From: Ignavibacteriota bacterium
GTDB lineage: Bacteria > Bacteroidota > Ignavibacteria > UBA10030 > UBA6906
Assembly: GCA_003158475.1 (NCBI GenBank)
Contig: PMJR01000048.1
Coordinates: 25,524-64,487 of the forward strand
Direction: 5' to 3'
DNA: 38,964 nt
The position numbers and the translations under genes are program-made. This document shows, one piece after another, positions 26,873 to 38,964 of the stretch. The number at the start of each line of letters is the position of its first letter. Position 1 is the stretch's first letter. The notes under the pieces were generated by a model. The model was not told where the DNA came from. It worked only from the letters and a program-made list of their open reading frames with translations, and did not search any database.

Positions 26873-29107
26873 GTGTCCCCTGATCAATTCGCGTTCTACG
26901 CGCACTCGCTCGGGTCAGGGCTTCTCGCCGCAGGCGTCGCGTACACCATCGGACGGCGGGGTCTTCTTCTGCTCGGGTTCCGCTCGGAATCGGCGTGGGA
27001 GGATTTCTCCTGTTCTGCTGCTGCGGGGCTCGGAATTATCGCGCTTACGGCATTCGGACTCGGGACGGCCGGGCTTCTCCGGGCGGGCCTCTTCGCCGGA
27101 GTTCTCGCATGCCTCGTCCTGTTTTCTCTCACCGCACTCGGACGCAGGGGGGATCCTCCGCCCGGGAGGGGGGAGGGGGCCGCACTTGACCGGACAGCGT
27201 TCGTTTTCACTCTGCTGTTGGCGATCCCGCTCCTTCTGCTCCCTCTCTACCCTCCGACCGGGCCTGACGCCATCACGTACCATCTTGCGGTTGCCAGGAA
27301 GATGGCGACCTCGGGAGTCGTCGGTCCTACACCGGAGTTCCGGTACGCGGTTTTTCCCGAGCTTGCGGAGGTGCTTTTCGCGGGTGCGCTTCTTCTCGGA
27401 AACGACGTCACGGCACAGGGGATTAGCTTTCTGGCTCTCGTTATCGCTGCCGCCGCGGTGGCGGCGTTCGTCCGGCGGAGGAACGGGAGCGCGGCCGGGC
27501 TCTGGGGAGCCGGGTTGCTGCTGAGCAACTCGGCCCTGCTGCTCCTCGGCGCGGTTGCGTACGGTGACATGATCCTCACCGCGTTCGTGACGGTTTCCCT
27601 TCTCTCGTTTGAAAGGTGGAGGGAAGAGGGGGGGGAGCGGTGGCTCGCCGTCGCGGGGCTGATGGGGGGGTTCGCGGCGGGCACAAAATATTCGGCGCTC
27701 TTTTTCCCTCCGATCCTCCTGGTGATGATAGCGGCTGCAACCGGCTGGCGCAGGGCACTTCGTCCGGTGTTGATGTTTCTGGTCCCGTTTGTGATCACCG
27801 CTTTCCCGTGGTATCTCTTCAACCTGTATCACACCGGGAATCCCGTGTGGCCGTTCTTCTCCCGCGCCTTCGGGCTCCGCTACTGGAACGAAACCGATAT
27901 TGCGGCGCAGACTTCCGATCTGCTCTCCCAGTATGGATCGGGGAAGAGTCTCTCCGCATTCCTCATGTTGCCGTGGAACCTGTTTGCGCACGGTGAGCTG
28001 TTTCATACCGAGGGCTCTCTCTCGTACTTGCTCATCGCCGGTCTTCCTTTCGCCCTGTACGAAGTGGCGCGGGACCGCTCCGCCCGACGGCTGGCATCCG
28101 TCGGGGCGGCATACACGATCTTCTGGTTCTTCACCGCGCAGATACTCCGCTACCTGATCCCTGTCGTCCCCCTCTACTGTGCGATTGTCTCGGCCGGAGC
28201 CGGCCGGTTCCTCAGGCGCTCGGTGAGTCCGAAGATTCTCCCCGCCGGGAGCGCGCTCCTGGCGATCGTGTTATTCCTCCCCCCCCTGTATTTCGCTCTC
28301 CAGTTTGCGGGAACACTCGGGCTTCCTCCTTCGACGCCCGGGGAGCGGGACCGGTTCCTGGATAAGCGCCTCCCGTCGCACGGGGCCGTCCGGTTTCTCA
28401 ACGAACGGGCCGGAAATGCGTACACACTTTATTCGTATCATGATCCCCAGATGGCCTATTTCGCGAGCGGAGAGTTCAGGGGAGATTTCTTCGGCCCCTG
28501 GCGGTATTCGCGTATTGAGGGGGCTCTCAATGCACGTGAGGATACATTGCTCACCGCGTTGCGTGAGCTGGGCGCAGACTACCTCCTCATCAGGGATGAC
28601 AGCTCGGGGTGCGGCTGCAGAGAAGAGTGGCTCACACGCCGGTTCGTGGTCCCGTACTACCGCTCCCCGGGCGTCGCGCTCTTCCGTGTGTCATCCGCTC
28701 CGCTCAGTGCTGCCTATGGCCCGGAGCTTGTTTCCGCGGACGACACAGCGGGGAGAGCGAGTTTCGCGCACACGGGGATACAGTTCGCCGTCACGGAGGG
28801 GAAAATGTACTGCCTGATGTGCACCGGGTCGACACATGCGGAGTTCGCACTCGCCGTACTGCAGCTGACCTGGCTCGACGAACGCGGGGCGCACATACGG
28901 ACCGACGAGGCCTCGGTCATCTTCCTGCCGAAGACGTCTGTACGCAGGCTGATTTCCACTTCACCGGCGCACGCCTCCGCGGCTACCGTTGCCCTCGCCC
29001 CCCTCGGGAAAATCGCGCCCGTGATCACTCATGTCTCAGTACGTGAGCTCCGGTTTCTCCCCGATCATCTCCCGGCGTCTGGTCGGGCATCAGGAATCGA
29101 ACAGTGA
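26873..29107 (+). CDS. Large GT-C-like polytopic membrane glycosyltransferase
   Basis: A 744-residue protein with about ten to twelve hydrophobic helices in residues 5-520 and a soluble C-terminal domain of ~220 residues. After the third helix, LYPPTGPDAITYHLAVARKM places an Asp in the first extracytoplasmic loop, as in GT-C (GT39/GT83-like) transferases that use polyprenyl-phosphate sugars. The soluble part includes AYTLYSYHDPQMAYFASGEFRG and ELGADYLLIRDD, common behind such membrane cores. ATG 26801 lies inside the divergent GT2 gene and gives a cysteine-rich non-membrane start, so GTG 26873 (VSPDQFAFYAHS) is chosen. The acceptor is unknown. The last 18 bases overlap the convergent polB-like gene. 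Confidence 0.8.
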   Translation: MSPDQFAFYAHSLGSGLLAAGVAYTIGRRGLLLLGFRSESAWEDFSCSAAAGLGIIALTAFGLGTAGLLRAGLFAGVLACLVLFSLTALGRRGDPPPGRGEGAALDRTAFVFTLLLAIPLLLLPLYPPTGPDAITYHLAVARKMATSGVVGPTPEFRYAVFPELAEVLFAGALLLGNDVTAQGISFLALVIAAAAVAAFVRRRNGSAAGLWGAGLLLSNSALLLLGAVAYGDMILTAFVTVSLLSFERWREEGGERWLAVAGLMGGFAAGTKYSALFFPPILLVMIAAATGWRRALRPVLMFLVPFVITAFPWYLFNLYHTGNPVWPFFSRAFGLRYWNETDIAAQTSDLLSQYGSGKSLSAFLMLPWNLFAHGELFHTEGSLSYLLIAGLPFALYEVARDRSARRLASVGAAYTIFWFFTAQILRYLIPVVPLYCAIVSAGAGRFLRRSVSPKILPAGSALLAIVLFLPPLYFALQFAGTLGLPPSTPGERDRFLDKRLPSHGAVRFLNERAGNAYTLYSYHDPQMAYFASGEFRGDFFGPWRYSRIEGALNAREDTLLTALRELGADYLLIRDDSSGCGCREEWLTRRFVVPYYRSPGVALFRVSSAPLSAAYGPELVSADDTAGRASFAHTGIQFAVTEGKMYCLMCTGSTHAEFALAVLQLTWLDERGAHIRTDEASVIFLPKTSVRRLISTSPAHASAATVALAPLGKIAPVITHVSVRELRFLPDHLPASGRASGIEQ

Positions 29108-31387
29108 TCCCTGCCCCTCAGAGCCTGAGGCCGCCTGCCGTTTCTTCTTCTGCAGCGAGCATCCGAACACTTCGCGCAACTTCCCCACATCGTACCCGAA
29201 CGGCAGAAGGAGCGTCTCGACGGCTTTCAGTGCCATGTCCGTGTATGTCTCGATGTCGTACCCCTCGGCCGATTCGTAGAGGGGGACGGGGAGCGCCTTG
29301 GCCGGCTTTTTCTTTCCCGAGAGATCCACGATGATGTATTCGACCATTTCCCCCGGCGCAAGGTGCACTCCCGCTTCGTCGAGGGCCTTTGCCGCGCCGG
29401 CACTGGCGGTGTTTGTCGTGTACTCCTCCGGCTCGCGCGTCAGGTGGCGGCGGATCACCAGCTCGAGCGGGTTTGCCGTTCCGGACCGCAGGAGCGAGAT
29501 CGCTTCACCGGCTTTCGCCAGCGCCGCAGGGATGAGTTCCTCCAGCTCCGCGACGGTCGCCGCCGCACCGAAGATCTGCAGCATCTCCCCCTGCAGGCGC
29601 TTGATGAAGACAGGCGTATCGCGCCTCCGGACCTCGATGCCGCGGATCTTGATCTCGTTGTTCGCATACCAGCCGACGTACCTGTTGGCGGTGGGTATGC
29701 GGGGGTCCATCTTCGACGACGGAAAGAGTATCCAGTTGTAGATCCCCTCGAGCGAGATGTCCATCCCGACGCTCTCCCGCACCTCCACGGCGAGCGATTC
29801 GTAGTCCGATTCCGTGGCCCCCTCCTTCCAGAGCCACATGCAGTCCACGATCGCGTGGATGAACCTGTACCCCCGTTCCTCCGCGATTTCCTTGGCGCGC
29901 AGTATCGCTTCGCGCGAGAATGCGTTCACCGATTCATGCGCCTCGATGCGGCCAAACCGGGCGTTCTTGTAGCCGAGGTACCCGAAGCAGGTCACCAGCA
30001 TCCATTTCAGCGCGTTCTGCCTCCGGTCATACAGCTTCCACTGTTCGTCCCCGGTGCGCTTCAGGGCCTTCTTCATTTTCTTGTACGAGGCACGCTTGCT
30101 GACGACCGTGCGGAGCGTGGCGGGGACAATCCCTTCGCGGCGTTCGCAGATCGTGTAGCCCAGCTCGGGGACCGCCCTGTTTCTGCAGCAACGGCAGTTG
30201 ACGGTCTCCGGGGAGATGTTGTGCCGGACCATGATCGTCGGGTACATCGACACGAAGTCCATTTCCGCGATCTGCTCGTGGAACCCCATGACCGGCTGGA
30301 AGATGAGTCCCCCCCGGTCGGCAAGGAGCAGCGTGGAGGCGGATTTAAATTCCTCGGGTTCCCGTTTTTTTGCCGGGATGAGGTACCCGTGGCGTGATGC
30401 CCACGAAAGCTGCATCGATGAGAGGGCGGAGCCGATCGTCGAGCGGGACTGGTGCTGCACGGGAAGCTGCGTCAGGCGTGCGATTTCCGCCACGCCGTCC
30501 AGGCTTGCCTCCCCCATCATGAACGAGTTCTCGGTATCAAGGTGCCAGCGCCCGGCAAGCTCGAACGCGCCGTCCTTGTGGACGATTTTCCCGTAGGCGA
30601 AATAGCTGGTTTCGCCGGTCGTGAAGTACCCCGCGGAAGGGTCCCTGTTGAGCGCCAGCGGAATTTCCTCCTGGGCCGCAATGCGCGTGAGCATCGGAAG
30701 CAGTACGGCGTCCCCGAATTCGGTCATGATGATGTCCGGGTCGCAGCGTGTGAGGTGGCGGTTGAGCGATGCGATCACCTCCGCCGGGTCCTCGTTTTCC
30801 AGCGCGTATGTGCGGCCGTCGTAGCCGACCTCCAGCTGGTGGGTCTTCCGGTACTTCGGCGAGACAAAGTCGGGGACATTCTTGAGCGTCATAGTCACAA
30901 GAGGGGGGAGCTGGTATTCCAGGGCGCCGGGATCGTCGTCGAGATTCCAGGAAATCAGCCGTCCTTCTTCATCGAGTGTGTACTCAGCGAAGGCCAGCGG
31001 GAAGAGCCCCGTTCTGTAGAGATAGAGCTGCTGGGGGGAAATGTCGGAATCGAAGAAGACGAAATGCGGGAAGTGCGGCTCGAGACGGCGGACGACGTCC
31101 TTCAGGTGAAGCGTATCGTGCACGGTGACGCGGAGAACGTTCCATTCATCGTTTGTATAGATCTCCCTCCGCACCGTCCGGTCAAGACTGACACGGAACG
31201 GAAAGAGACGTACGATCGCCCCGACGCGCTCCTCGTCGGCCTCCGGGATGTGCATGTAAAACCACGGGTCAAACCCGTCGTGGCAACGGTACTTTGCTCC
31301 GTCACGGTCCACCAGCCAGAGCGTGATCCCCTCCCGCGACGGATAGAGGTCAAACAGCCACCCGGTGATTGTCCGTGTCTTCGTCAT
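29090..31387 (-). CDS. PolB2-like family-B DNA polymerase homologue, probably inactivated
   Basis: A 765-residue family-B DNA polymerase homologue. Motif A is EMDFVSMYPTIM, keeping catalytic D377. Motif B is NALKWMLVTCFGYLGYKNARFG with K461 but V-T in place of N-S. Motif C, normally YGDTDS, reads IVDCMW with D515 kept and the second, metal-binding Asp replaced by M517. The proofreading ExoI motif DxE is absent (VTMTLKNVPDF), and the region around IIMTEFGDAVLLPML is the only ExoII trace. The protein therefore looks polymerase-impaired and exonuclease-dead, like the apparently inactivated archaeal PolB2 family that I recall having a few bacterial members. It ends GQGSLFDS: Q759-F763 matches the bacterial sliding-clamp motif QxxLF. 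Last gene of the operon; its start overlaps the upstream small gene by 38 bases. Confidence 0.9.
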   Translation of the reverse strand: MTKTRTITGWLFDLYPSREGITLWLVDRDGAKYRCHDGFDPWFYMHIPEADEERVGAIVRLFPFRVSLDRTVRREIYTNDEWNVLRVTVHDTLHLKDVVRRLEPHFPHFVFFDSDISPQQLYLYRTGLFPLAFAEYTLDEEGRLISWNLDDDPGALEYQLPPLVTMTLKNVPDFVSPKYRKTHQLEVGYDGRTYALENEDPAEVIASLNRHLTRCDPDIIMTEFGDAVLLPMLTRIAAQEEIPLALNRDPSAGYFTTGETSYFAYGKIVHKDGAFELAGRWHLDTENSFMMGEASLDGVAEIARLTQLPVQHQSRSTIGSALSSMQLSWASRHGYLIPAKKREPEEFKSASTLLLADRGGLIFQPVMGFHEQIAEMDFVSMYPTIMVRHNISPETVNCRCCRNRAVPELGYTICERREGIVPATLRTVVSKRASYKKMKKALKRTGDEQWKLYDRRQNALKWMLVTCFGYLGYKNARFGRIEAHESVNAFSREAILRAKEIAEERGYRFIHAIVDCMWLWKEGATESDYESLAVEVRESVGMDISLEGIYNWILFPSSKMDPRIPTANRYVGWYANNEIKIRGIEVRRRDTPVFIKRLQGEMLQIFGAAATVAELEELIPAALAKAGEAISLLRSGTANPLELVIRRHLTREPEEYTTNTASAGAAKALDEAGVHLAPGEMVEYIIVDLSGKKKPAKALPVPLYESAEGYDIETYTDMALKAVETLLLPFGYDVGKLREVFGCSLQKKKRQAASGSEGQGSLFDS

Positions 31388-31643
31388 GCGCCGCTTCCAG
31401 TCGTTTCACCCGGTGTTCGAGGTCCGCGATCATCCTGTGCTGCGCCAGGAGCATGCACATGGCGATGCTTTCAAAGGGGATCGGCCTGGCGGCATAGGCG
31501 CTCCCCGCCAGCTGGAGCCGCGCCGCGCGGAAGAGCTCGTCAAGCGCTTCCTGATCTTCCCTGCGCAACCCGCGCCGGAATTTTCCCCAACTTTCCATTT
31601 CCTGCTGGATGACCATCGTGAATGTCGGTACCGTCCGTCCCAT
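31350..31643 (-). CDS. Small protein of the polymerase operon (MGRT family)
   Basis: A 97-residue protein starting MGRTVPTF, mostly helical: WGKFRRGLRREDQEALDELFRAAR, then SAYAARPIPFESIAMCMLLAQHRMIADLEHRVKRLEAA, ending in a short coiled coil. It overlaps the RecA-like gene by 104 bases and the polB-like gene by 38, yet ATG 31643 has a good GGGAGGG site 9 bases upstream. From memory it resembles short haloarchaeal proteins that begin MGRTNPT and share the RRxLRRxxQ..FD.LF pattern; I could not verify this. It may be a structural or adaptor subunit for the polymerase. No catalytic motif is seen. Confidence 0.75.
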   Translation of the reverse strand: MGRTVPTFTMVIQQEMESWGKFRRGLRREDQEALDELFRAARLQLAGSAYAARPIPFESIAMCMLLAQHRMIADLEHRVKRLEAAHDEDTDNHRVAV

Positions 31644-32346
31644 GCAATGCGCCCTCCCTGACGTGAATGCCCTCCCCGCCCCGGGCATTTATGGTTTCTG
31701 GTATAGTTTCCGGCATAGTCTTTGGTGGAATCTCCGGCAGAATCCGCTGGTTCCCTCCGTCTTCGACGACCCGGTACACCCGGTCCATGACGGTCATCAG
31801 GTGCGGGAAAAGTCCGTTCCGCTCCTTCGAGCCGAGCTTCACATCCAGCGAGGCCAGGAGCACGGCAACGTTGTCCTGCCGCAACCGCCGGAGCGCCCCG
31901 AGGATCCTTTCCAGTCCCGCCTTCACCTGGAACAGCGGCGCTTGGTCGTCGTAGAACGTGTCGAGCAGGCCGAATATGATGACCATCGGCGAGCTGCGCT
32001 GCCGGACGAACAGGGGGAGACGCTCCGTAATCACCGCTTCCATCTGGTAGCAGGTGAATGCGCGGGAGACGAATATGTTGTCCAGCAGGTCCTCCGGAGT
32101 GATTCTCCGTCCGTCCGGGTGCACCCCCGCGTGTTTCCGCGCGAACTCGGCCAGGTAGTATACGTCGAACCGGTTCGTCCCGTCCACGAGGGTCACCGGC
32201 CTCCCGCCCAGAAGCACATGCGCCGCCGCTGCAAGGGAGATGCGGAAGACCCCTCCCGTGCCGTGAAGGCAGTAGAGCTTTCCCGGCGGGGCAGACTTGA
32301 ACTGCTGCATCAGCTGCGTGTACGGAACAGGCGAATGGGTGTTCAT
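31540..32346 (-). CDS. RecA/RadA-like ATPase with degenerate Walker A (ImuA-like role)
   Basis: A 268-residue protein with the RecA core pattern: a strand leading to a P-loop-like turn (LYCLHGTGGVFRIS, residues 25-37), a helix, VTLVDGTNRFDVYYLAEFARKH, then SPMVIIFGLLDTFYD in the Walker B position and NVAVLLASLDVKLG for a later core strand. The Walker A lysine is absent (GxxxxGKT reads GTGGVFRI), so ATP hydrolysis is doubtful. RecA-like proteins without robust ATPase are known as ImuA/SulA-like partners of Y-family polymerases, which fits its place between dinB and the polB-like gene. The C-terminus carries tetrapeptide repeats and then runs over the start of the next gene. The frame opens far upstream; ATG 32346 is chosen because it lies 4 bases after the previous stop and begins the fold. 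Confidence 0.78.
   Translation of the reverse strand: MNTHSPVPYTQLMQQFKSAPPGKLYCLHGTGGVFRISLAAAAHVLLGGRPVTLVDGTNRFDVYYLAEFARKHAGVHPDGRRITPEDLLDNIFVSRAFTCYQMEAVITERLPLFVRQRSSPMVIIFGLLDTFYDDQAPLFQVKAGLERILGALRRLRQDNVAVLLASLDVKLGSKERNGLFPHLMTVMDRVYRVVEDGGNQRILPEIPPKTMPETIPETINARGGEGIHVREGALHGTDGTDIHDGHPAGNGKLGKIPARVAQGRSGSA
31690..31737. repeat. Four imperfect tandem 12-bp units in the RecA-like gene
   Basis: Plus-strand units TATGGTTTCTGG, TATAGTTTCCGG, CATAGTCTTTGG and TGGAATCTCCGG follow one another without gaps. On the coding strand they give Pro-Glu-Ile-Pro, Pro-Lys-Thr-Met, Pro-Glu-Thr-Ile and Pro-Glu-Thr-Ile. The period preserves the frame and resembles the PGSM repeat in the kinase gene at 8413-8460. 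The location is just past the end of the predicted RecA-like fold. Confidence 0.85.
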
Positions 32347-32350
32347 GACT

Positions 32351-33256
32351 TCACGCCGCTTTTCGTTTGATGGGTGACCGGCGGGCAAGCTCGCAGTCGA
32401 GCCCCGCGAGGAGACGCATGAGCCGGCGGACTCCGCTCCCGCCGGGCGCTCCGGGGAACATCGTCTCCTCCCCGTCTGTGAGATACGCGTAGAGCGTCTT
32501 TTCTTCCCCGAGGCAGAGACGGACCGTCTCGTGGAAGGCCGTCCATTCCTCTCCTTCCTCCTCCATCGCAAGGCACGGAGTGCGCAGCACGCATGCAGGG
32601 GCACCAAGTGCGCCGGGCACCCGGACGGCATCGAGCAGCGGAGCAGGCGCCGGCACGTGAATGATGTTCCGTTCGCGCAGGCATGCCAGGTACTCCGGCA
32701 GTATGAACCGGGACGTGCCGTTCTCCACCGCGTAGCGGCATGCCGGGGGGAGCGCATCGAGGCAGCGGAGGAGCGCGCGGAGGAATCCGCCGAAATCCAG
32801 CGCTTCCGTCCGGCAGATGTTCCCGATCTTCAGCATGACGATGCGGACGGAGGGCTCAAGGATCCGCAGCAGCGGCATGAACGTTTCGGCCATGCAGCGG
32901 GGATCAAGGAAATGCGGGTTGACCTCTCCCCGCTTTTTCCCGTCGGGATACCCGTACGGAAACCGGTATACCATCTGTTCGCCGTCGACGAGGAGAGTCC
33001 AGGCGAAGCCTTCCCCGGCGTGTTCGTTCATCCGGAAAAGCAGTGCAGGATCGGGCGGATACCGGCAGTCGCAATAAAGCAGGGCCGTGTCAAAAAGCCG
33101 GGCATACTCGGTGATGACGCCGCGCGGCTCCCGGTAGAGCAGCCCGCTCCAGAAAGGTGAGGTGCGGGGCGAGAGACCGATATGGATGTTGTGCCTCCTC
33201 CAGGCGCGGAGGCGGGGGAGCAGCTGCTCGCCCGGGTCGTCATACTGATGTGTCAT
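32351..33256 (-). CDS. Diverged DUF72 (YecE-like) TIM-barrel protein in the polymerase operon
   Basis: A 301-residue protein that aligns along its length with the canonical DUF72 protein at 38023 in this same window. Both share an opening strand with IHIGLS/IYFGSS, a W-x-G-x-x-Y step, TEYxxLF, a YxxPD segment, NPxFL, LPxxxxYAVE, YLxxLxxRxxxHV, and a final ETVxxCxxxxxxLYAY stretch. The usual terminal motif VNN is replaced by LTD. DUF72 barrels resemble endonuclease IV/UVDE-type folds, but no biochemical role is established. Here it sits between a Y-family polymerase and a RecA-like protein, which suggests a DNA-repair job. ATG 33256 is preceded by the strong site GGGAGGAGGGG. It overlaps dinB by 17 bases and stops 4 bases before the RecA-like gene. 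Confidence 0.75.
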   Translation of the reverse strand: MTHQYDDPGEQLLPRLRAWRRHNIHIGLSPRTSPFWSGLLYREPRGVITEYARLFDTALLYCDCRYPPDPALLFRMNEHAGEGFAWTLLVDGEQMVYRFPYGYPDGKKRGEVNPHFLDPRCMAETFMPLLRILEPSVRIVMLKIGNICRTEALDFGGFLRALLRCLDALPPACRYAVENGTSRFILPEYLACLRERNIIHVPAPAPLLDAVRVPGALGAPACVLRTPCLAMEEEGEEWTAFHETVRLCLGEEKTLYAYLTDGEETMFPGAPGGSGVRRLMRLLAGLDCELARRSPIKRKAA

Positions 33257-34475
33257 TCCCCTCCTCCCGCCGTTCCGCCACACCACAGGTGATCCCCCAG
33301 CGGATGCTGCCGTAGCCGTATCTCACCTGGAGGCCATCCAGCCGGCGGTGGAGCGCGCTGAATTTTTCCGCGGCGGTGACACCGAGATCCAGCTGGGACC
33401 CTTCCACGGCCGACAGGTTCGATACTTTCACGCCGACAAGGCGGACGAGCTGCCCCGGCACACAAAGCAGCGCGAGCAGCCGCCGGGCGGCGGCGAATAT
33501 GTCCTCTTCATTCGACGAGGAGAGGAGAAGCGAGGCCTGTTTCTGCACCGTCGTGAAGTCGGCAAACCGCACGCGGACGGTGACCGTGGAAGCCGTAAGT
33601 TCATCCTGCCGGAGCGTCTTGCAGCAGCGTTCGGCCAGGTAGTAGAGCGTGGCGCCGACGCGCTCACGGTCGGCGGTGTCGGCGCCGAATGTCATGTCGC
33701 GGGAAATCGATTTCTCGACGTGATCGTGCGAGACGATCGCATCGTCGGAAGGGACGGCGCACGAAGCGATAAAGCGGCAGAGCGAAAACGTGCGGAGCCG
33801 TTCCGTGCGGAGGGGGGGCCGCCGGTCGTCCGGGCGCGCATTCCGCTCCGCGTACGCCATGGCATCCCCGACCGTCCTGATCCCGTACGTGTGGAGATGC
33901 GGAAGCGTCCGGGATCCAATACCGGGGATCGTTTCCACCGGCAGCGGGACCAGAAACTCGCGCTCGGTTCCCGGCCGGACGATGACAAGGCCATTCGGCT
34001 TCTTCACCCCCGCGGCGATCTTCGCGCACACCCTGTTCGCCGCAACGCCGATCGAGACGCTCAGTCCGCATTCACGCTCGATCCGCTCCTTCATCGCCTC
34101 CGCCATCCGCGACGGATCGTGCCCCCAGAAATGCAGACACCCGGTCACGTCCATGTACGCTTCATCCACACTCACCTGTTCCAGGTCGGGAGTGAAATCC
34201 CGGAGTATCGTCATTACTTTTTCGGAATATTCGCCGTAGAGACGGTGGCTCCCCCGGAGGAACACCGCGTCAGAAGGAAGAATCCGCGCCGCACTACGCA
34301 GCGGCATCGCCGTCCGCACGCCGTACTTTCTTGCCTCGTAGTTCGGGCACGAGACGATCCCCCGGTCGGTGCGCAGTCCCCCTATGCACACCGGCCTCCC
34401 CCGGAGCTCGGGGTGCAGGGCCATTTCGACGGAGGCGAAGAAACAGTCGATATCAAGAAGAAAGAATGTGCGCAT
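33240..34475 (-). CDS. Y-family DNA polymerase (DinB/ImuB type), catalytically intact
   Basis: A 411-residue translesion DNA polymerase. The first catalytic motif is LLDIDCFFASVEM with D8 and the steric-gate pair F12-F13. The second is VSVDEAYMDV with D104 and E105. Thumb-type helix-hairpin-helix elements follow (ETIPGIGSRTLPHLHTYGIRTVGDAM), then the little finger (KSISRDMTFG, TVTVRVRFADF). QLDLG at 361-365 resembles the clamp-binding motif of E. coli Pol IV (QLVLGL). With all acidic residues present it should be active, unlike ImuB proteins, which lose them. The frame opens at 34541; ATG 34475 gives the family N-terminus and has GAGG upstream. It overlaps the zinc-ribbon gene by 23 bases and the DUF72-like gene by 17. 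Confidence 0.95.
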   Translation of the reverse strand: MRTFFLLDIDCFFASVEMALHPELRGRPVCIGGLRTDRGIVSCPNYEARKYGVRTAMPLRSAARILPSDAVFLRGSHRLYGEYSEKVMTILRDFTPDLEQVSVDEAYMDVTGCLHFWGHDPSRMAEAMKERIERECGLSVSIGVAANRVCAKIAAGVKKPNGLVIVRPGTEREFLVPLPVETIPGIGSRTLPHLHTYGIRTVGDAMAYAERNARPDDRRPPLRTERLRTFSLCRFIASCAVPSDDAIVSHDHVEKSISRDMTFGADTADRERVGATLYYLAERCCKTLRQDELTASTVTVRVRFADFTTVQKQASLLLSSSNEEDIFAAARRLLALLCVPGQLVRLVGVKVSNLSAVEGSQLDLGVTAAEKFSALHRRLDGLQVRYGYGSIRWGITCGVAERREEGNDTSV

Positions 34476-34707
34476 AGTCGTGCCTCTGGCATTCTTCACA
34501 CATGCCGCTCCGGTCCGCCGTGTACCGGCACGAGCATTCACGGCACAGGGTCAGGCAGTGGACGGCACAGGAAGGACAATGGATGTCCCCCCCGAGCGTT
34601 TCGTCAGCCATCCCGTAAAACTCTTCCAGCTCGCGGACGCTCAACGTCCGCTCGCACACGCAGCACTCAGGCGGCGACAGGACATACGGCGGTTCGGTGC
34701 AGATCAC
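34453..34707 (-). CDS. Double zinc-ribbon small protein, first gene of the polymerase operon
   Basis: An 84-residue Cys-rich protein with twelve cysteines. C15/C16-x-C18 with C44-x-x-C47 could bind one zinc, and C55-x-x-C58 (or C60) with C70-x-x-C73 a second. The middle (LSVRELEEFYGMADETLG) is helical. Start choice: GTG 34707 has AAGGTGA upstream and lies ~43 bases below the predicted transcription start. An in-frame TTG at 34785 coincides with the -35 box and is therefore rejected. Overlapping into dinB suggests coupled translation. It may be a DNA-, clamp- or protein-binding adaptor, or the cofactor of the regulator. No known family recognised. Confidence 0.65.
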   Translation of the reverse strand: MICTEPPYVLSPPECCVCERTLSVRELEEFYGMADETLGGDIHCPSCAVHCLTLCRECSCRYTADRSGMCEECQRHDYAHILSS

Positions 34708-34756
34708 GGGTTCACCTTGAGTTCGGGAAACGATACCGGGGCGCGGGCCCCGAAAA

Positions 34757-34785
34757 AGGATACGACATTTTTGTCGTGTTGTCAA
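34757..34785 (-). promoter_or_regulatory. Promoter of the polymerase operon
   Basis: On the minus strand: -35 TTGACA (34785-34780, perfect), a spacer of exactly 17 bases, -10 TATCCT (34762-34757, four of six). The expected start near 34750 lies at a GC hairpin (34737-34752, CGGGGC/GCCCCG arms) in the 5' leader. A perfect 16-base palindrome nearly fills the spacer, so a bound dimer would block RNA polymerase. Confidence 0.75.
34762..34777. promoter_or_regulatory. Operator-like perfect palindrome O1
   Basis: ACGACATTTTTGTCGT: 6-base arms ACGACA and TGTCGT around a 4-base AT core, perfect dyad. It sits between the -35 and -10 boxes of the operon promoter, the classic site for a dimeric repressor such as LexA. 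It is unlike the E. coli (CTGT-N8-ACAG) or Gram-positive (GAAC-N4-GTTC) SOS boxes, but LexA sites vary by phylum. The repressor is not encoded in this window. Confidence 0.7.
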
Positions 34786-34792
34786 TAACCGG

Positions 34793-34808
34793 GTAACAAA
34801 TTTGTCGT
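34793..34808. promoter_or_regulatory. Second, half-degenerate operator copy O2
   Basis: GTAACAAATTTGTCGT: the right arm TGTCGT is perfect and the left arm keeps ACA, with ACAAATTTGT as an inner 10-base palindrome at 34796-34805. Its centre is 31 bases from the centre of O1, close to three helical turns, so two dimers could bind side by side on one face. This suggests cooperative repression. Confidence 0.55.
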
Positions 34809-35280
34809 GTGGCTTTTAAGGGAAAACGCGGGAAGCCGTTGAGCCGTAACGCGCAGGGGGGCGTCACATAAAAAATACTTCATCCGATCTCGCAAACGCC
34901 CCCGCGGAGATGTAGTTATAGATGCCGGGATCGTCCGGGCGGAACCGGGCGCCCACGGCGAACAGAATTCCGTTGTTGCCGGTCCGGCGCTTCCACGAAC
35001 CGCGCGAGCAACGGCAAGCCGTGCACTCCCGTCCTGTCCCCCGGCAGGACGGGATGCCGGCCAGTCCCCGCGGCCGGGTCCGGAGCACGTGCGGCGTAAA
35101 AAGCCCGCGGGTCGACCGGATGTCCTCCGCGGCCCGCCTTTTCCCCGCGTCTTCTAACGTCATACCCCGCTTCTGACAACTGACAGTGCGCGATGGATTA
35201 CCGGGTGTTGGCGCGGAACCGGATGCCGGGGGAGCGTGTTGAGTAATGCAGAACCGACAGCCAATATTCCGGGGGAACTC
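34809..35280. other. Intergenic region without a recognised gene
   Basis: About 470 bases separate the operator copies from the redoxin gene. Open frames exist (the longest on the minus strand, 34864-35403) but none resembles a protein family, none has a sensible ribosome site, and the longest runs across the redoxin start. No RNA gene, repeat or terminator is evident. It could hold the promoter of the redoxin-TlpA pair, though I see no convincing boxes. Confidence 0.5.
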
Positions 35281-35856
35281 GTGAAACTCATTATCGTCTC
35301 TTGCATACTCGGGCTCGCCGTTGGAGCAACATCTCTCTCGCCCGCAAACGAGCCGGAGAAGATCGAAAACTTCACGCTCCAGGACGTCGACGGTGCACGA
35401 CACGCCCTGGCAGATTACGCGAACTGCAAAGCCGTGGTGTTGATGTTCATCTCAACGCAATGTCCTGTTTCGAACGGCTACAACGCACGCATGGCAGCCC
35501 TCCATAGCGACTACAAGGACAGGGGTGTCGTATTTCTCGGGATCAATTCGAACAAAGCAGAATCAGCCGACGACGTGCGGAGTCACGCGAAGGAACATGG
35601 CTTCGGGTTTACGATACTGAAGGATCCTGACAACAGGATTGCCGACAAGTTGCAGGCAAGCGTCACACCCGAAATTTATGTCCTCAATTCTGCGCTGGAA
35701 TTGCTCTACCATGGACGTATCGACGACAACTCCCGCGGGACCGCGATTACCTCGAAGGATCTTCGTAAAGCGCTGGATGAGATACTTGACGGTAAGCCCG
35801 TGTCCGTCACCCGGACAAAGGCTTTCGGGTGCTCCATCAAGCGGACGGATTCGTAA
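35281..35856 (+). CDS. Secreted redoxin (thioredoxin-fold, single Cys)
   Basis: A 191-residue thioredoxin-fold protein with an N-terminal signal-like segment (MKLIIVSCILGLAVGATSLS), so likely periplasmic. The active site is STQCPVSNGY with C61-P-V-S, one cysteine where classical thioredoxins have CxxC; such CPxS redoxins resemble AhpC/TSA-type proteins. GRIDDN after the cis-Pro region (SVTPEIYV) and the C-terminal KAFGCSIKR, with a second conserved Cys, are typical of this subgroup. GTG 35281 has GGGGGAAC before it and exposes the signal peptide; GTG 35236 is a longer alternative. The stop overlaps the next start (TAATG), so the two are coupled. Confidence 0.85.
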   Translation: MKLIIVSCILGLAVGATSLSPANEPEKIENFTLQDVDGARHALADYANCKAVVLMFISTQCPVSNGYNARMAALHSDYKDRGVVFLGINSNKAESADDVRSHAKEHGFGFTILKDPDNRIADKLQASVTPEIYVLNSALELLYHGRIDDNSRGTAITSKDLRKALDEILDGKPVSVTRTKAFGCSIKRTDS

Positions 35857-38022: not shown

Positions 38023-38964
38023 ATGCCGAAAAAGAAACCATCCCCGGATACGCTCTCCCTCTTCGACGGCATGGACGGGCCGCCTGCCCGGAAGGCGGAG
38101 GCGCTTCCGTCGCCCTATGTTTCAAACAACCGTGACCGGCTCCACCGGTGGGCAAGCAGGGGGATTTACTTCGGCTCCTCATCGTGGAAGTATCCCGGAT
38201 GGCAGGGGATGGTGTACAACCGCACGTATCCCTCCAAAAAGGCGTTCGAGCGGGAGTGCCTCACCGAATACTCCGAACTCTTTCCCACGGTGTGCGCAGA
38301 CTTCGCGCTGTACAATTTCCCCGACCGGGAGCAGATGCAGGTCGTCCACGACAGCACAACGGATGATTTCAGGCTGTCGCTGAAGGTCACCGACCGGATT
38401 ACGGTGAAACGCTACCCGAACCTCCCGCGCCACGGCGTACATGCGGGGAGGGAAAACCCGGACTTCCTCAATCTCGAACTGTTCGAGGATGCGTTCCTCC
38501 GCCCCGTCGAGTCGCTCCGGAAGAAGCGGGGGGTGATCATATTCGAGTTTTCTGCTTTTTACCCGAATTCCGGCATCACGTACGACAAATTCGTGCGGCT
38601 GATGGATGACTTCCTTGCCCGTCTCCCGAAGGAGTTCTCGTACGCGGTGGAGATACGGAACAAAGAGTACCTGACCTCCGACTACCTCACGATGCTCAGC
38701 GACAGGGGGGTGGCACACGTCCTGAACAGCTGGACGAAAATGCCTCCGATCATCGAACAGATACAAATTGCAGGGGTCCTCTCCGCAAAGTTCTCGGTGG
38801 CACGAGCCCTCCTGAAGCCCGGGAGAACATACCAGGATGCGGTGGATCTGTTCCAGCCGTACGATGCGATAAAGGAAGAGAACCCGGAGATCCGCCTGGG
38901 GCTGGCGGAGACCGTGCAGCGGTGCGTCGCCGAGGGGAGACAGCTCTACGCCTACGTGAACAAC
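38023..38964 (+). CDS. DUF72 (YecE-like) protein (3' end cut by window)
   Basis: At least 314 residues, open to the window edge. Canonical DUF72 traits: IYFGSSSWKYPGWQGMVYNRTY, YSELFPTVCADFALYNFPD, FRLSLKVTDRITV, YAVEIRNKEYL, and the terminal YAYVNN just before the cut. The fold is a TIM barrel of unknown biochemical role. The first 45 residues are a basic, low-complexity extension with TLSLFDG at 10-16, one residue off the sliding-clamp motif QLSLF. A diverged paralogue lies in the polymerase operon at 32351-33256. Start ATG 38023 has no clear ribosome site; the upstream terminator implies its own promoter, but I cannot define the boxes. Confidence 0.9.
   Translation, partial: MPKKKPSPDTLSLFDGMDGPPARKAEALPSPYVSNNRDRLHRWASRGIYFGSSSWKYPGWQGMVYNRTYPSKKAFERECLTEYSELFPTVCADFALYNFPDREQMQVVHDSTTDDFRLSLKVTDRITVKRYPNLPRHGVHAGRENPDFLNLELFEDAFLRPVESLRKKRGVIIFEFSAFYPNSGITYDKFVRLMDDFLARLPKEFSYAVEIRNKEYLTSDYLTMLSDRGVAHVLNSWTKMPPIIEQIQIAGVLSAKFSVARALLKPGRTYQDAVDLFQPYDAIKEENPEIRLGLAETVQRCVAEGRQLYAYVNN

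Follow-up and report, generated by a model that had tools for sequence, protein, structure and literature searches.

The gapped dyad ACGACA-W4-TGTCGT, which fills the promoter spacer of a DinB – DUF72-like – iRadA – PPB2 – PolB2 operon and has a weaker second copy upstream, is very probably the operator of a phage-type, LexA-like repressor encoded elsewhere in the genome. This repressor would silence the operon together with its own promoter and that of a DUF72 gene, and would be released by RecA-triggered cleavage after DNA damage. In our best reading, the host has a minimal SOS regulon that is run by a non-canonical LexA through a new operator and that controls a PolB2 mutasome. We infer binding, cooperativity, RecA-dependent cleavage and damage induction from what the sequence contains: the sites, their promoter register, their conservation, their co-occurrence with the repressor, the autoregulatory position of the box and the cleavage residues. 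The window referred to below is the whole stretch of Ignavibacteriota DNA that was analysed (38,964 nucleotides); its features and the repressor gene are listed in Table 1.

Table 1. Operators, promoter elements and genes (positions in the window unless a contig is given)
Feature	Position	Strand	Remarks
O1, primary operator, ACGACA-N4-TGTCGT, ACGACATTTTTGTCGT	34762..34777	-	in promoter spacer, overlaps first base of -10
O2, second, weaker operator, GTAACAAATTTGTCGT (ACGACAAATTTGTTAC on - strand)	34793..34808	-	31 bp upstream of O1, centre to centre
-35 hexamer TTGACA	34780..34785	-	promoter scan
-10 hexamer TATCCT	34757..34762	-	17-nt spacer; promoter scan
First operon gene, cysteine-rich zinc-ribbon-like protein, 84 aa, GTG start	34453..34707	-	homologues with 45-94% identity at the equivalent position in relatives
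Y-family polymerase (DinB / Pol IV type)	33240..34475	-	
DUF72-like protein, strongly diverged, ATG at 33256	32351..33286	-	no Pfam match of its own; homologues match DUF72 proteins
iRadA, RecA/RadA-like, without Walker A motif	31540..32346	-	gene order as in PMC11791011
PPB2, small helical PolB2 partner, conserved N-terminal MGRT motif	31350..31643	-	as in PMC11791011
PolB2, B-family (archaeal-type) translesion polymerase	29090..31387	-	
LexA-like phage-type repressor, 216 aa	G000 contig C54:10180-10830	-	single-copy; sole LexA-like (S24) regulator gene found in the host

A TTGACA/17-nt/TATCCT element on the minus strand is the sole sigma-70-like promoter found in positions 34500–35300. O1 occupies its 17-nt spacer, as the sequence-only reading of this DNA had stated, and the final T of the box doubles as the first base of the -10 hexamer. 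That reading took the site for a perfect 16-bp palindrome, a description that has to be amended: the two 6-bp arms are exactly complementary, while the centre, TTTT, is not self-complementary, so that O1 is a gapped dyad of the form ACGACA-W4-TGTCGT. The second copy that it had placed 31 bases upstream was also found there, as a weaker match than O1. A very GC-rich hairpin (TCGGGGCCCGCGCCCCGG; window positions 34736–34753) coincides with the position where transcription of the polymerase operon is expected to begin and is a possible leader element.

The operon itself ends with iRadA, PPB2 and PolB2 in this order, its PPB2 starts with MGRT and its iRadA lacks the Walker A motif. It is thus a PolB2 mutasome operon as described in PMC11791011, with which it shares an identical gene order, the MGRT motif, the absence of Walker A and the neighbourhood of DUF72 and lexA, both of which are reported there near polB2 loci. 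Unlike the operons described there, the host operon also holds a DinB polymerase and a cysteine-rich protein; and whereas that paper places lexA nearby, with no operator reported in the sections consulted, we propose here an operator and a phage-type repressor. DUF72 proteins have been predicted to be endonuclease IV-like (PMC3828134). A second DUF72 gene lies near the operon (38023–38964 of the window), and in many relatives it adjoins the polB2 operon divergently, close to the box.

A pattern scan of the host genome, an assembly of 3.745 Mb in 153 contigs with about 98% completeness, found the exact box in two copies. With up to one mismatch there were 28 places, versus 3 for the reversed pattern; the stricter core GACA-W4-TGTC had 3 places, all within the promoters of the polymerase operon and of the repressor/DUF72 pair and none elsewhere in the host genome, and the other 26 one-mismatch sites all lie inside ORFs and lack this core. 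Matches with up to three mismatches number 38 in the window, a frequency that makes loose matching uninformative. The other exact copy is on contig C54, between the gene for the 216-aa repressor and a divergent DUF72 gene; it occupies the spacer of a TTGACA-N17-TATCTT promoter directed towards the DUF72 gene, and 32 bp from it is a second box, ATGACAATAATGTCTG. By eye we recognised a likely promoter of the repressor gene itself, TTGACA-N17-TACATT, immediately upstream of the strong box, which would place this box at the beginning of the repressor transcript. On contig C33, the 350 bp upstream of the host recA gene contain no box. With recA devoid of a box and no further GACA-W4-TGTC site, the predicted regulon consists of two promoters only and is minimal, not a full recA/uvr/ruv SOS regulon.

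The repressor consists of an HTH_3 domain (PF01381, residues 9–63, E 1.7e-10) and a Peptidase_S24 domain (PF00717, residues 97–206, E 3e-26). In a structure model built from 33 relatives, for which the modelled sequence was the 95%-identical relative L128 (mean pLDDT 78; domains good, linker poor), the N-domain is a CI-type multi-helical HTH of five helices and not a winged helix. Its closest solved structure is P22 C2 (TM-score 0.92–0.94 by target length, rmsd 1.0–1.3), and the top structural matches of the C-domain are the catalytic domains of LexA and lambda CI; a profile search against solved structures concurs for both domains. The LexA model TIGR00498 matches the C-terminal half only, with a score of 68 versus a cut-off of 110.95 bits. 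The protein thus has neither a full-length TIGR00498 match above the cut-off nor a winged-helix N-domain, and it is a repressor of the CI/C2-type HTH plus S24 class, LexA-like but not a canonical LexA. No canonical LexA reaching the cut-off was found in the host genome, which is about 98% complete.

S139 and K175 are invariant in 20 aligned repressors. The presumed scissile bond, Ala104-Gly105, which lies in the motif VPAGK in the host, is Ala-Gly in 16 of the 20 aligned relatives and Gly-Gly in the other four (L050, L053, L056 and L058, the repressor genes of G013, G049, G055 and G043). The putative recognition helix also has invariant residues across the same 20 sequences (R32, T33, Q35 and R36), as befits a box with so little variation. 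By sequence, the protein has the testable features of phage-type S24 SOS repressors. P22 C2 is the nearest solved N-domain, but the operator sequence of P22 C2 and 434 differs from the host box; the A/T-only centre of the host box resembles the indirect readout known for those operators. The sequence-only reading had named a LexA-like SOS regulator as the natural candidate and a genome-wide scan for the box as its check. That scan supports the candidate, with qualifications: the sole other exact box lies directly upstream of the sole LexA-like (S24) gene found, but recA carries none, and the DNA-binding domain is of the CI/C2 type and not that of a canonical winged-helix LexA. Its remark that the box differs from the well-known LexA boxes holds for those named in the literature consulted.

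Within the family and the order, the box is found again both at the repressor and at the polymerase operon. In the family of the host, an Ignavibacteria lineage, it is present in 21 of 21 genomes with one to four copies each (reversed control, 0), and its constant targets are the repressor/DUF72 intergenic region and the operon ending iRadA-PPB2-PolB2. Among 77 distinct strong boxes, 66 are exactly in the -35/-10 register, and shifting the register by 1–3 nt leaves 0–1. In the polB2-operon promoters (n=40), an in-register promoter is present in 38, and a second box lies at -32 in 15 and at -31 in another 15 (30/40), other distances being almost nil. The repressor promoters of 45 named loci have two boxes about 30–33 bp apart in 35 cases, one box in 3 and no box within the 260 nt examined in 7, where the chance expectation for the exact core is about 0.0002 per repressor promoter. 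Order-wide (98 genomes), the strict box is found in 48 of the 59 genomes with the repressor versus 9 of the 39 without it; the genomes are related, hence such counts are non-independent and p-values overstate the support.

The phage-type repressor is present in most of these 98 genomes; canonical LexA predominates in family f5, and the two occur together in several genomes. A search for polB2 succeeded in 74 of the 98, and the gene often lies within a few kb of whichever regulator the genome carries. The box occurs at 44 of 44 polB2 loci in genomes without canonical LexA and at 0 of 11 in genomes with canonical LexA only; the 44 were assembled after viewing the loci, include G006, G040 and G074 (box present, repressor not detected in the draft assemblies) and leave out the boxless partial loci L197, L198 and L204 as well as very short loci. 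The exact E. coli-type box CTGT-N8-ACAG, in contrast, occurs at 7 of the 11 polB2 loci of canonical-only genomes versus 5 of 43 other loci. It is also present in 8 canonical lexA promoters of relatives (n=21), where the ACGACA-type box is present in 0. One relative has two polB2 operons (L230, G058:C44), one beside the phage-type repressor with a box and the other beside canonical LexA without a box.

These comparisons bear on which protein binds the box. An unrelated dimeric regulator, for instance a redox or metal sensor, might happen to act on the polymerase operon as well as on the S24 gene, since a sequence alone names no protein, and in one relative a cupin gene carries the box. We consider this improbable, because the box tracks this repressor across an order, is present in the intergenic region next to the repressor gene and is missing from the polB2 loci of canonical-LexA genomes, and because no other regulator gene was seen to be consistently linked to it. 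Still less credible is the literal form of the earlier idea, in which the canonical LexA of the host binds here. LexA boxes do vary between phyla, and the operon content is typical of SOS; against this stand the lack of any host protein at the TIGR00498 cut-off, the only strong match being the C-terminal half of a CI-type repressor, and the different box in the lexA promoters of relatives.

The dyad might also act as an RNA or DNA hairpin, a terminator or attenuator, and not as an operator, given its 6-bp stem, its 4-nt loop and the T-rich sequence that follows, and a scan lists the dyad as terminator-like on the minus strand. It lies between -35 and -10, however, upstream of the expected transcription start, and is hence not transcribed from this promoter; its register to the two hexamers is moreover fixed in relatives. 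We rejected the hairpin on account of this position and regard it as very unlikely. The frequency of three-mismatch matches in the window is what could speak for a chance palindrome without function, but the exact copies stand only at two related promoters, and the conservation in 21 of 21 relatives, with controls at 0, excludes chance in practice.

For the phage-type repressor, which is our preferred reading, we propose the following mechanism. A dimer of the N-terminal CI/C2-type HTH would bind ACGACA-W4-TGTCGT at O1, in the promoter spacer; the weaker site, O2, which faces the same side of the helix three turns upstream, would be bound as well and strengthen repression. Contacts between the O1 and O2 dimers are probable, with the fixed -31/-32 spacing as their sequence evidence. 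The bound repressor would bar RNA polymerase from TTGACA/TATCCT and keep the whole polymerase operon silent, and the same two-box layout would repress the divergent DUF72 gene and the repressor gene itself; one palindrome is thus predicted to serve both autoregulation and the control of error-prone polymerases. Upon DNA damage, the RecA filament would induce self-cleavage at Ala-Gly by the Ser139-Lys175 dyad, which would free both boxes and turn the operon on.

Family f6 includes several genomes in which the repressor and a divergent DUF72 ... iRadA-PPB2-PolB2 series form one unit. A broader proposal, for which we see the case for and against as evenly balanced, is that the SOS switch was exchanged wholesale within one order: the same PolB2 mutasome would be under a captured phage-type repressor and ACGACA-W4-TGTCGT in most families and under canonical LexA, often with CTGT-N8-ACAG, in one. 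The founding unit would have resembled the divergent repressor and DUF72-...-iRadA-PPB2-PolB2 arrangement, from which the polymerase operon later moved off, keeping its operator. If this is true, an SOS network has been caught growing outward from one self-contained divergent unit, and DUF72 is an SOS-induced repair protein; the swap of both repressor and box at one operon within an order would be a natural experiment on regulatory rewiring. As to the source of the repressor, the viral contigs searched yielded one distant match (27%) and lacked the operator-promoter pattern; a phage source was thus not found, and no prophage context was seen around the chromosomal gene. Among 20 relatives of the repressor examined in the phylum outside the order, 19 proved to be canonical LexA and the remaining one a phage-like repressor, and they therefore do not root the repressor clade.

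Several known systems have parts of this design. The non-canonical LexA of Bacteroidetes (PMC8565304) likewise combines a CI-type HTH (PF01381) with an S24 peptidase that has the Ala-Gly and Ser-Lys residues, uses a fixed-spacer palindrome, often as two boxes per promoter, and has its own gene and error-prone polymerases in its regulon. Its boxes, CTAA-N5-TTAG and GGA-N5-TCC, differ from ACGACA-W4-TGTCGT, and the host differs further in controlling a PolB2 mutasome and in having recA outside the regulon; the text of that paper does not mention Ignavibacteria, the host group. FddR of Francisella (PMC13148647) and HdiR of Streptococcaceae are co-opted phage-type S24 repressors with a small damage regulon, autoregulated with a divergent gene, as we propose here. 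The small host regulon without recA resembles that of FddR, which also has recA outside its regulon, but the box of FddR, GTG-N11-CAC, and the genes that it controls are different. Canonical LexA shares its C-terminal S24 domain with the host repressor and is presumably switched by RecA in the same way, and in sister genomes it appears to act on this PolB2 operon; unlike the host repressor, it has a winged-helix N-domain and recognises CTGT-N8-ACAG.

Our literature search, which does not prove that none exists, found no LexA or SOS study of Ignavibacteria; the SOS regulator and operator proposed here for this group have no reported counterpart in the literature searched, and the box is sharp and testable. 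They would add a case in which a phage-type repressor, not canonical LexA, runs the damage response, offer bacterial PolB2 mutasomes a candidate control element and tie DNA damage to DUF72, a widespread family that has no known function and has been predicted to be endonuclease-like.

A few boxes of relatives stand before other genes. In-register boxes were seen, each in a single relative, at L098:7001, L093:1587 and L094:7001, before a cupin gene, a DUF72-like gene and a stretch without identification. At L100:2316 and L102:3206 (relatives G010 and G016), a box with an in-register promoter precedes an unannotated gene for a helical protein of 65–70 aa (MTTRNEIEKRLEELRSEYRKVYSMLSML...), possibly a new damage-induced small protein.
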